DNA from: Chitinophagaceae bacterium | GTDB lineage: Bacteria; Bacteroidota; Bacteroidia; Chitinophagales; Chitinophagaceae | Reading direction: 5' to 3' | DNA length: 63,457 nt | Assembly (NCBI GenBank): GCA_004173355.1 | Contig: SEAD01000015.1 | Coordinates: 1 to 63,457 of the forward strand | In this document: positions 54,463 through 63,457 of the stretch, in pieces | How the letters are laid out: the number at the start of each line of letters is the position of its first letter | Numbering within the stretch: the first letter of the stretch is position 1 | The notes under the pieces: generated by a model | Databases searched by the model: none | The model's input: only the letters and a program-made list of their open reading frames with translations | Told to the model about the DNA's origin: nothing | Made by a program: the position numbers and the translations under genes

Positions 54463-55596
54463 TTGAAAACACTGATAGTACGAAACACCACCGCCCTGTT
54501 TACCGCAGCCATCCTGCTGAACGCCTGTTCGGGTAACAAAAGCCTGCCGGCGGGATCAAAAGCGACCCCGTCCCTGAAAGAAATTTTTAAAGATGATTTT
54601 TCCATCGGCACCGCCCTGAATGCCTCACAGATCGAAGGCCGTGACAAACAGGCCGCCATACTGGTGCCACAGCAATTCAACATGGCAACACCGGAAAATA
54701 TCATGAAAGCGGAGGTCATCCATCCGGAATGGAACCGGTATGATTTTGACCTGGCAGATAAACTGGTGGACTACGGGCGCGCTAATAATATCGGGATCAA
54801 CGCGCACACCCTGATATGGCACAGCCAGCTGCCACGCTTCGCCAGGCAGATCCAGAATGTGGATTCCTTCCGCCTGTTTTTCAACGAACATATCAAAACC
54901 GTTGCGGCACGCTACCACGGGAAAGTTTTTTCATGGGATGTGGTCAACGAAGCACTCAACGAGGATGGCAGCATGCGGAAATCCATTTTCCTGGACAAAC
55001 TGGGCGACGGATTCGTCACAGATGCTTTCCGGCTTGCAGCAGAGGCATCACCCGGAACAGAACTTTACTATAATGATTATAACAATGAGCAGCCAGCCAA
55101 ACGCGCCGGATGTATCACCCTCATCAAAAAAATACAGGCTGCCGGCGTACGCATCGATGGCGTGGGAATCCAGGGCCACTGGCATCTCGGAAAGCTGCCA
55201 TTAAAAGATATTGAGCAAAGTATTCTCGAATATTCCGCACTTGGCCTGAAGGTCATGTTTACCGAACTCGACATCGAAGTGCTGCCGCGGAATTTCCAGG
55301 GCGCAGATGTGAGCCAGCGAATGAAAAGTACCCCGGAAACGAATCCCTACCCGGGAGGATTGCCCGATAGCGTACAACAATTGCTGGCAGATGATTACGA
55401 AGCATTGTTCAGGCTTTTCCTGAAACACAGGGACAAGATCACCCGCGTTACATTCTGGGGTGTGGATGATGGCCAGAGCTGGCTCAACGGATGGCCAGTA
55501 CCTGGTCGCACCAACTATCCATTGCTGTTTGACCGGAATTTCAAACCAAAACCCGCGTTTTATAAAGTAGTTGCATTAAAACAAACCGGCAAATAA
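54463..55596 (+). CDS. GH10 endo-1,4-beta-xylanase lipoprotein
   Basis: A 377-residue xylanase. The only usable start is TTG at 54463 (MKTLIVRNTTAL when read as Met); a nearby ATG at 54458 is out of frame and stops at once. A lipobox (AILLNACSG) anchors it in the membrane. The GH10 barrel has the acid/base Glu163 in WDVVNEALN and the nucleophile Glu268 in MFTELDIEV. WHSQLPRF and TFWGVDDGQSWL are family signatures. It cuts the xylan backbone to oligosaccharides. It lies 44 nt after GH115 and 20 nt before the transporter. Confidence 0.95.
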   Translation: MKTLIVRNTTALFTAAILLNACSGNKSLPAGSKATPSLKEIFKDDFSIGTALNASQIEGRDKQAAILVPQQFNMATPENIMKAEVIHPEWNRYDFDLADKLVDYGRANNIGINAHTLIWHSQLPRFARQIQNVDSFRLFFNEHIKTVAARYHGKVFSWDVVNEALNEDGSMRKSIFLDKLGDGFVTDAFRLAAEASPGTELYYNDYNNEQPAKRAGCITLIKKIQAAGVRIDGVGIQGHWHLGKLPLKDIEQSILEYSALGLKVMFTELDIEVLPRNFQGADVSQRMKSTPETNPYPGGLPDSVQQLLADDYEALFRLFLKHRDKITRVTFWGVDDGQSWLNGWPVPGRTNYPLLFDRNFKPKPAFYKVVALKQTGK

Positions 55597-56138
55597 CCCA
55601 CCATTCAAGTTTTACCATGAGCAATCACAAATTATCCGTTGTTGAAAAAGTAGGTTACAGCCTGGGTGACCTCGCTGCCAACCTGGTATTCCAGACCCTG
55701 ATCACCTACCTGGCCTACTTCTACACCGATATCTATGGTCTCGAACCCGGACACGCATCCGCCATCATGCTGGTAGTCGGGCTGATCGCCGCATTTGGAT
55801 TCAACCCTGTGATCGGTGCACTGGCCGACCGCACCGTGTCCCGCTGGGGAAAATTCCGTCCCTGGATCCTGTTTACCGCCATCCCGCTGGGGATTACTGC
55901 ACTGCTTGCATTCAGCACACCGGACTTCAGCTACAAAGGGAAACTCATTTATGCGGTGATCACCTATACATTCCTGCTACTTTTTTACGCAGCTAACAAT
56001 TTGCCATATGCAGCGCTAAGCGGAGTGATTACAGGAAACATGAAGCAACGAAACAGTATGTCGGCCTATCGTTTCGTTGCAGTAATGTTTGCACAATTCT
56101 TTGTTCAGGTTTTTATGCTACCGATTATCGAGTCAGCA

Positions 56139-56212
56139 GGAAACAACAACTTAAAAGATAGCATCGAAATAGCCTCAGTGGGAAACAACAACTTAAAAGC
56201 CGGTATCGAAAT
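56139..56212 (+). repeat. In-frame imperfect 42-bp tandem repeat in the transporter gene
   Basis: Segments 56139-56170 and 56181-56212 are near copies (period 42 bp), encoding GNNNLKDSIEI and GNNNLKAGIEI. They fall in a loop between predicted helices, so the extra 14 residues may be tolerated. The duplication keeps the reading frame. Confidence 0.85.
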
Positions 56213-56799
56213 CGTCATGACCTGGCTGGCAATCATTGGCACTATCATGCTGATCATCACCTTCCTTACCACACGCGAACGCATTATCCCCAAACCGGAA
56301 CAGAAATCAAAGCTGACTGAAGACCTGGCCGACCTGGCGAAAAACCGGCCCTGGCTGATCATGCTGCTGCTCACCACACTGGTGTTTGTGACCCTGGCAC
56401 TGAAAGGCGGGGCTTACGTGTATTACTTTAAAAACTATGTCGACAAGGATGCCCTTACCCGGTTTATCACACCGGTACTGGACGGACTGAACAGCATCGG
56501 TGTCAACTTCTTTGGGCAAGACCCGGTATCCGCAGGCTTTGGTCTCTTCAATGCCGGCGGGATTATTTTCATGATCGTCGGGATCACCCTTTCAAAAAGC
56601 CTGGCCGATAAATACGGGAAACGGGATGTATTCGGGATTGCACTTTTTATCTCTACCCTGTTCATCCTCTTTTTTTATTTCTATGCCCCCGCATCGGTCG
56701 GACTGATGTTCGCTTCGCAGATCCTCCATGGTTTCTTCTACGGAATCACGATTCCGATCCTGTGGGCGATGATCGCCGACGTAGCGGATTACAGTGAAT

Positions 56800-56825
56800 G
56801 GAAAAATAACCGGGAAAAATAACCG
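56800..56825 (+). repeat. Exact 13-bp tandem duplication causing a frameshift
   Basis: The unit GGAAAAATAACCG occurs twice, at 56800-56812 and 56813-56825. Thirteen is not a multiple of three, so the second copy shifts the transporter frame. With one copy, EWKNNRRATAI reads through without a break. Confidence 0.95.
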
Positions 56826-57124
56826 ACGCGCTACCGCCATTATTTTTTCAGCGATGATGGTCGGACTGAAAGGCGGACTCAGCATCGGCAGCTCATTGCT
56901 CACCTTATTGCTTGGGGTATTCAACTACCTGCCCAACAGCACGGAAACACAGACGGAATCCGCTATCCAGGGCACCCGCCTCCTGGTGAGTGTGATACCC
57001 TCCATCCCCTTCCTGCTTGGCGCGCTGCTGCTGTTTTTTTACAAAATCAACAAACAGATGGAAGTGACCATTGAAGCCGACCTCAAACAAAGACGCGGAT
57101 AAACAAACCCTGAAATGAATTTTT

Positions 57125-58159
57125 ATGCCTGAAGACAGTATTGAACATATCGACTTCGACAAACTCAGACAACAAGCCATCTCACAACCACTGGTAGACC
57201 ATATCTACACAGCAGACCCATCGGCCCACGTGTTCAACGGAAAAATATATATCTACCCTTCGCATGATATCGAGTCCAATGTACCCTTTGACGACCTGGG
57301 CAGCCATTTCGCCATGCAGGATTACCACGTGATCTCGATGGATTCACCGGAAGCTGCAGCAGTGGATCATGGCGTGGCACTGGATGTAACCGATGTGCCA
57401 TGGGCAGAAAAACAAATGTGGGCGCCGGATGCGGCGGAAAAAGACGGACGTTATTACCTGTTCTTCCCGGCAAAAGCACCCGATGGTATTTTCCGGATCG
57501 GAGTGGCCACCAGCCAATCACCCACCGGACCATTCAAAGCGGAACCGGAAGCCATCCGCAACAGTTTTTCCATCGACCCTGCAGTGTTCTGCGATGATGA
57601 CGGGAAATACTATATGTACTTCGGTGGCATCTGGGGCGGACAACTCCAGCGATGGAGGAAAGGCAGCTTCAATGCGGCAGGTGAGGGACCACTGGCACAT
57701 CTTCCTTCTGCTGGTGAACCAGCACTGTGTGCGAAGATCGCCCGACTGACCGATGACCTCCTGCAGTTTGATGAACAGCCCCGGGATGTAGTGATTATCG
57801 ATGAATCCGGAAACCCGCTGCTGGCGGGGGATACAGACCGCCGGTTTTTTGAAGCAAGCTGGATGCACCGTCACAATGGTTTGTATTACTTCTCCTGGTC
57901 AACCGGAGACACCCATTTCATCTGCTATGGTACCGGTGATAATCCTTACGGACCATTTACCTATCGCGGCAGGATCCTCGAACCCGTCGTTGGTTGGACT
58001 TCCCACCACTCCATCTGCAAATACGCGGATAAATGGTACCTGTTCTATCATGACTCGAGTCTCTCGGAAGGAGTAACGCACCTGCGAAGTGTAAAACTCA
58101 CGGAACTGCAACACCTGGACAACGGTGAGATCAGGACCATACAACCTTACATTAAATAA
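57125..58159 (+). CDS. GH43 glycoside hydrolase, intracellular beta-xylosidase/arabinofuranosidase
   Basis: A 344-residue five-bladed propeller enzyme without signal peptide, so probably cytoplasmic. The catalytic base is Asp31 in IYTADPSAHVF. The pKa-tuning Asp is in SIDPAVFCDDDGKYYM, and the acid Glu is in FFEASWMHRHNGLYYF. MWAPDAAEKDGRYYLFF is a family core strand. GH43 members remove xylose or arabinofuranose from oligosaccharides. Its position straight after the transporter suggests that it trims imported products before XylA and XylB act. Confidence 0.92.
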   Translation: MPEDSIEHIDFDKLRQQAISQPLVDHIYTADPSAHVFNGKIYIYPSHDIESNVPFDDLGSHFAMQDYHVISMDSPEAAAVDHGVALDVTDVPWAEKQMWAPDAAEKDGRYYLFFPAKAPDGIFRIGVATSQSPTGPFKAEPEAIRNSFSIDPAVFCDDDGKYYMYFGGIWGGQLQRWRKGSFNAAGEGPLAHLPSAGEPALCAKIARLTDDLLQFDEQPRDVVIIDESGNPLLAGDTDRRFFEASWMHRHNGLYYFSWSTGDTHFICYGTGDNPYGPFTYRGRILEPVVGWTSHHSICKYADKWYLFYHDSSLSEGVTHLRSVKLTELQHLDNGEIRTIQPYIK

Positions 58160-62744: not shown

Positions 62745-63457
62745 ATGAAAAAATCCAGCTTACTTCCTGTTATCGGCACCGCAATGCTTGCCGCGGGATG
62801 CACCTGCATGGCGCTGATTGGTAAAGCACAGCAGTCGCCGGCAAAGCCAGCGCAGGCACAGCAGGCGCAGGCAAAACCAGCGCAGGCACAGCAGTCTTTA
62901 TCACAACAACCGCAGCCCCCGCATCTCCGGACCGCAGGCAAGACAAAACAACTGGTTATTGGCCAGGAACCATTCCTGGTGCTGGGTGGTGAACTCGGCA
63001 ATTCAAGCGCTTCTGACCTGGAGTACATGAAGCCCATCTGGCCGAAACTGCAGGCCATGCATCTCAACACAGTCCTGTTGCCGGTGTATTGGGAAATTTT
63101 GGAACCCAAAGAAGGGACCTTTGATTTTACACTCGTTGACAGCCTTGTTGCCAGTGCGCGGTTATATAATCTCAAACTGGTACTGCTCTGGTTTGGTGCA
63201 TGGAAAAACAGTATGAGCTGTTATGCGCCGGAATGGGTAAAGACAAACCAGGCAAGATTTCCGAGGGCTGTGAACCGTGCAGGGAAAGGACTGGAAATAT
63301 TGTCCGCCTTCAGCAGGAACAACCTTGAAGCAGATAGCAGGGCATTCAGTGCACTGATGAAACACCTGCGGGATACAGACAGCGAGCAGACGGTCATTAT
63401 GGTGCAGGTGGAAAACGAAATCGGCATGCTGACGGAAGCACGTGAATATACAGAAGA
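62745..63457 (+). CDS. GH35-like glycoside hydrolase, partial at window edge
   Basis: The ATG at 62745 opens a frame that reaches the window end (237 complete codons). A signal peptide with a lipobox-like LAAGC (Cys19) is followed by an Ala/Gln/Pro-rich linker built of repeats (about residues 28-58). The barrel begins at PFLVLGGELGNSSASDLEYM, a GH35 pattern. LPVYWEILEPKEGTFDF and the acid/base region MVQVENEIGML are typical. The family removes terminal galactose; this divergent subgroup may have another substrate. It is last in view and begins 9 nt after the esterase. Confidence 0.85.
   Translation, partial: MKKSSLLPVIGTAMLAAGCTCMALIGKAQQSPAKPAQAQQAQAKPAQAQQSLSQQPQPPHLRTAGKTKQLVIGQEPFLVLGGELGNSSASDLEYMKPIWPKLQAMHLNTVLLPVYWEILEPKEGTFDFTLVDSLVASARLYNLKLVLLWFGAWKNSMSCYAPEWVKTNQARFPRAVNRAGKGLEILSAFSRNNLEADSRAFSALMKHLRDTDSEQTVIMVQVENEIGMLTEAREYTE
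62840..62894 (+). repeat. 30-bp tandem repeat in the GH35-like linker
   Basis: Segments 62840-62864 and 62870-62894 differ at one base and repeat with a 30-bp period. They encode AKPAQAQQ units in the linker between the lipoprotein signal and the catalytic domain. The low-complexity linker may hold the enzyme away from the membrane and is prone to copy-number change. Confidence 0.85.

Follow-up and report, generated by a model that had tools for sequence, protein, structure and literature searches.

The window, i.e., the whole stretch of 63,457 bases that was analysed, carries a xylan-utilisation cluster coding for GH67, GH115, GH10, GH43 and GH3 enzymes, a sialate-esterase-like protein (SASA), UxuA and an FGGY kinase, which is closest to xylulokinase but scores below that model's cut-off. 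Between the GH10 xylanase gene (54463-55596, + strand) and the GH43 gene (57125-58159, + strand), both of which align nearly full length with relatives, lies a gene for a GPH:cation symporter that is split into two overlapping frames. The upstream frame (55617-56822, + strand) codes for 401 residues, approximately helices 1-10 by homology with MelB, and terminates at a TAA within the second copy of a 13-bp repeat; R399 is its last residue that still matches relatives. The downstream frame (56794-57102, + strand) codes for 102 residues from a GTG at 56794, approximately helices 11-12, and overlaps the upstream frame by 29 bases. The preliminary description, which had proposed a GPH symporter split by a frameshift into 401 and about 100 residues, is thus correct on the position of the split, and the family assignment holds: each piece matches Pfam MFS_2 as well as NCBIfam TIGR00792, the two covering consecutive segments of these profiles. 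The N-terminal part matches MFS_2 (PF13347) at 4.8e-62 and TIGR00792 (gph) at 2e-77, the latter with 260.7 bits (cut-off 231.35) from profile position 1, and the C-terminal part covers TIGR00792 positions 346-437. In PF13347 the pieces occupy profile positions 1-265, 257-354 and 349-427, the last of these being the C-terminal part. Coverage of the GPH:cation symporter profile over the family length is reached only by both pieces combined, whereas all 86 related loci uncut by a contig end have a single uninterrupted frame.

The break lies at 56800-56825, where GGAAAAATAACCG is present as two exact head-to-tail copies (56800-56812 and 56813-56825, + strand), as seen in the sequence itself, by motif count and by Tandem Repeats Finder (2.0 copies, 100% matches); the exact 13-bp tandem duplication claimed earlier is therefore there. 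The copies cannot slide by one base either way, i.e., there is zero microhomology at both edges. With up to two mismatches allowed, GGAAAAATAACCG has 5 matches in the window against a chance expectation of 2.35, and the exact ones are the tandem pair only. Among units of 8 to 100 bases, the window contains no other exact tandem duplication. In 200 dinucleotide-preserving shuffles of the window, scanned for units of 10 to 40 bases, exact tandems with a unit of at least 13 bases had a mean of 0.01 per shuffled window, and those with a unit of at least 10 bases a mean of 0.125. The duplication would put translation out of frame after R399, with a stop two codons later. Exact adjacent copies, a length that is not a multiple of three and relatives without the duplication make the pair a candidate tandem-duplication loss-of-function allele. 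Elsewhere in the window (62826-62896), a 30-bp repeat of 2.4 copies with 90% matches codes for a Gln- and Ala-rich segment close to the start of the gene at 62745.

Position of the break in the carrier

The solved structures of MelB allow the break to be placed by homology. The C-terminal part aligns with MelB residues 358-443 (E 5e-7), beginning at residue 358, or 359 in 4m64 numbering. The N-terminal part gives a good alignment over residues 6-176 only, and the alignment of its end, up to residue 360, has 1.4 bits, which is meaningless alone and agrees with the C-terminal side. By this alignment the break site is the counterpart of the cytoplasmic loop10-11 of MelB, between helices 10 and 11, so that the 401-residue piece would have approximately ten helices and be without the last two. 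The copy described here thus differs from MelB-type GPH symporters in being interrupted in loop 10-11. In MelB, R363 is located in this loop, and a change to Cys nearly abolishes transport at R363, K377, G379, A383 (helix XI), P418 and Y429 (helix XII) (excerpts of PMC8437787). In the inward-facing state of MelB, density for residues 356-361 in loop10-11 is missing (excerpt of PMC10942615). The counterpart of MelB K377 is K in 87 of the 88 related loci (a set in which the contig scan is represented by the best 80 of 464 loci); the 88th has a gap and is presumably L089, which ends before the site. We infer from this homology that the 401-residue product, without helices 11 and 12, most likely has no transport activity.

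Comparison with related loci

The genome search covered 59 genomes including the window's own and gave matches in 19, that is, in 18 of the 58 others. The set of relatives was drawn from 94 loci with a tblastn match to the N-terminal part; after removal of the own locus (L001) and of five loci with less than 50% identity (L010, L011, L012, L013 and L020), 88 loci were left, each with at least 50% identity over at least 380 residues. They correspond to 86 distinct records, as L004/L033 and L005/L064 are each one record present twice, with identical proteins and contigs of equal length, and 84 distinct records are uncut. From the genome-contig scan the best 80 of 464 loci were taken, so that the comparison covers the closer relatives.

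Within this set, with the best 80 of the 464 scanned loci, all 86 loci uncut by a contig end have one frame of 470-492 codons, counted from the beginning of the match to the stop, and in L051 and L089 the frame runs off the contig end. In the same set, limited as above to the best 80 of 464, the loop is gap-free at 88 of 88 loci and reads mostly D-Y/F-S-E-W-x-x-x-R-R-A-T-A-I; the 13-mer GGAAAAATAACCG is found at the same site as a single copy in 10 of the 88 and in tandem in none, and 0 of the 88 have, within the symporter gene, an exact tandem whose unit is 8 to 60 bases long. All 88 relatives, again with the best 80 of 464 from the scan, are therefore without the duplication, which upholds the earlier claim of a broken gene. 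In the only other genome of the same genus that was searched (G001), the symporter frame is open and codes for 481 residues. Since the relatives have one copy and an open frame, a single copy is the ancestral condition; among the genomes examined, the duplication is unique to the present one, or to its assembly. The neighbours are conserved as well: a GH10 match is present at 80 of 92 related loci, and a GH43 match likewise at 80 of 92, within the flanking DNA examined and with the contig scan limited to the best 80 of 464. In family and in place between GH10 and GH43, the gene resembles the GPH:cation symporters (MelB, TIGR00792) and the MFS step of Bacteroidetes xylan loci, the latter as given in part of PMC8002723.

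Selection on the gene and age of the lesion

Against the sister gene (NG86), the N-terminal part has dN 0.094, dS 2.26 and dN/dS of about 0.04, and the C-terminal part dN 0.156, dS 1.92 and dN/dS of about 0.08; as dS is near or at saturation, these ratios are a coarse guide. No further stop or frameshift was found in the N-terminal or the C-terminal part of the gene. Together with the low dN/dS this suggests that selection acted until recently, and because nothing else disrupts either half and both are conserved, the lesion would be either recent or an assembly error. An old pseudogene was rejected on the same two observations.

Two further features bear on this dating. The symporter of the window is slightly more changed than that of the sister in most outgroup comparisons, in both parts, and this slight excess could reflect weaker selection. 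In addition, the gene carries a second tandem duplication (56133-56216, + strand), which is imperfect (34 of 42 bases identical), 42 bp long and in frame, lengthening the loop that precedes helix 6 by 14 residues. It is absent from 88 of 88 related loci (contig scan, best 80 of 464) and is older than the 13-bp duplication, given the divergence between its copies. That one gene carries two duplications may point to an older relaxation of constraint, which, like the slight excess of change, counts against the reading of a recent loss.

Origin of the duplication

Our preferred reading, to which we give a probability of roughly 0.7, is that a recent spontaneous 13-bp tandem duplication, assuming that the reads carry both copies, has frameshifted the one gene of the xylan-utilisation cluster that clearly codes for a GPH symporter, in one draft genome. 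The event looks ordinary and of a known kind, i.e., a loss-of-function mutation or possibly a slip of assembly, and not a switch. As to the route, slippage usually uses some microhomology, and slippage on a short repeat therefore fits poorly with the zero microhomology at both edges. This geometry would result from a staggered break that was filled and blunt-joined. The assembly contains a Ku gene (C122:16884-17411, 8.6e-50), which makes end joining a possible route and no more. A literature search for duplications by end joining gave no more than the few cases cited here; its coverage was partial, so that this absence says little.

The alternative that the gene is intact in the organism, with a single copy of the 13-mer, and that the second copy is an error of assembly or consensus, is doubtful in our assessment and yet carries appreciable weight. 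The assembly is a draft of 372 contigs, the duplication is found at no related locus (88 loci, with the best 80 of 464 from the contig scan), both halves of the symporter look selected, and the neighbouring enzyme genes align nearly full length with relatives, all of which speaks for this alternative. Against it, the window has no Ns, the assembly holds no second allele of the locus, and 20 stretches of the assembly (241,077 of 5,358,832 bases) contain, among units of 10 to 100 bases, a single exact tandem, of 12 bp. On this one case in the sampled bases, an assembly-wide excess of micro-duplications was rejected. A leftover contig overlap would usually have the length of the assembler's word, and hence exceed the 13 bases of the repeat seen here. 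In other genomes, 19 exact tandems (unit 10 to 100 bases) occur in 1,072,055 bases of 102 partly overlapping loci, of which 13 are one conserved 10-mer and 4 have a unit of at least 13 bases. That such tandems exist in real genomes and are few in this assembly lowers the artefact reading without removing it. The 12-bp tandem of the sampled stretches is GCCTGAACCGGA, on contig C200 (L125:19392-19416). The conserved 10-mer, AACAGAACGG, occurs as an exact tandem in the flank downstream of the symporter gene in 13 Flavobacterium loci (L025:10642, L026:8985 and 11 more).

Any short tandem duplication can collapse, and this capacity does not by itself make a switch. The earlier suggestion of on/off switching, in which gain and loss of the second copy at a useful rate would turn uptake on and off within the population, found no support and is very improbable: the repeat has two copies only, its edges are without microhomology, no second allele is present in the assembly, and neither a repeat tract nor a recurrent duplication is seen in relatives, 0 of 88 loci having an exact tandem (unit 8 to 60 bases) in the gene (best 80 of 464 from the contig scan). 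A variant in which oligosaccharide uptake in the xylan cluster is switched reversibly, cells with two copies representing one phase and coexisting with one-copy cells, and in which the duplication is made by end joining instead of slippage, is if anything less credible still. The closest precedent is in pneumococcal capsule genes (type 3 locus, cap8E and tts), where phase variation is attributed to short duplications (Waite 2001, 2003, cited after PMC4022640). These are likewise short, inactivating tandem duplications within an ORF that can in principle collapse, but phase variation was reported there, whereas the present case comes from a single assembly and concerns a gene of another function; for a pneumococcal 9-bp insertion the expected reversion is at most about 1e-5 (same source, citing Waite). 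In Xenorhabdus lrp, tandem duplications (26-116 bp) accounted for three of 25 mutations, and the authors ruled against phase variation (excerpts of PMC6786866); reversion was tested there in eight isolates, which may not include a duplication mutant. That case is alike in that a duplication stands among many ordinary loss-of-function mutations, and unlike in the length of the duplications, the prolonged culture and the regulator gene. The frameshifts in kpsC that are linked to a repeat lie in a tandem A tract (excerpt of PMC13410964). Our literature search for reversible short tandem duplications yielded few cases, and with its partial coverage this scarcity says little.

Two other explanations leave the duplication real and change its meaning or its source. 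Some IS4-family elements make long target-site duplications, and the 13 bp could be the footprint of a departed insertion sequence, a geometry that zero microhomology would match. It is unusual for excision to leave just the two copies behind, and DDE_Tnp_1 (PF01609), the only transposase family searched and one among others, has no match in the assembly, although drafts lose repeats; we regard this footprint as extremely unlikely. The transporter could also be split and still work, either with the 401- and 102-residue pieces both made and assembling, or with a +1 shift at AAA-TAA giving a longer protein with a four-residue insert. Both frames are open, they overlap by 29 bases with the GTG as a candidate start, and split membrane protein fragments are able to reassemble (excerpt of PMC3464245). 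The split form is however found in 0 of 86 uncut related loci (best 80 of 464 from the contig scan), in MelB the charge network of the loop hit by the break is important (excerpts of PMC8437787), and no strong frameshift signal was seen by eye, which makes a working split protein highly improbable.

Predicted consequence for sugar uptake

Apart from the broken gene the assembly has no strong GPH match, and the protein search found no other place. The other MFS_2 matches score between 18.8 and 37.9 bits, and four of these places (C126, C353, C332 and C11) lie weakly over the cut-off of 27. The assembly also codes for three full-length sugar-porter MFS proteins, for which XylE is the best or second-best NCBIfam model; they reach 290-380 bits on XylE (cut-off 608) and lie above the sugar-porter cut-off. 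Eight SSF rows are read as seven sodium:solute symporter genes. The preliminary description held that the lesion would block uptake: the part concerning the only strong GPH carrier stands, but "would block" is too strong given the three XylE-like porters and the seven SSF genes, through which free pentoses may still enter. In Bacteroidetes xylan loci, an inner-membrane MFS step serves short xylo-oligosaccharides (excerpt of PMC8002723). If the symporter is truncated as predicted, the cost would likely fall on the uptake of xylo-oligosaccharides or glycosides and not on free xylose, so that import of oligosaccharides is probably lost and that of monosaccharides probably retained, all of these substrates being putative.

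If the duplication is real, this lineage has lost its only clear GPH carrier next to intact xylan enzyme genes (GH67, GH115, GH10, GH43 and GH3), and xylan would be predicted to be digested outside the cytoplasm, with import mainly of monosaccharides. If it is an error, a single short duplication in a draft genome can mimic a metabolic loss. Neither outcome alters general understanding. In a plasmid search all relatives were distant, the best, at 68%, being from Runella.
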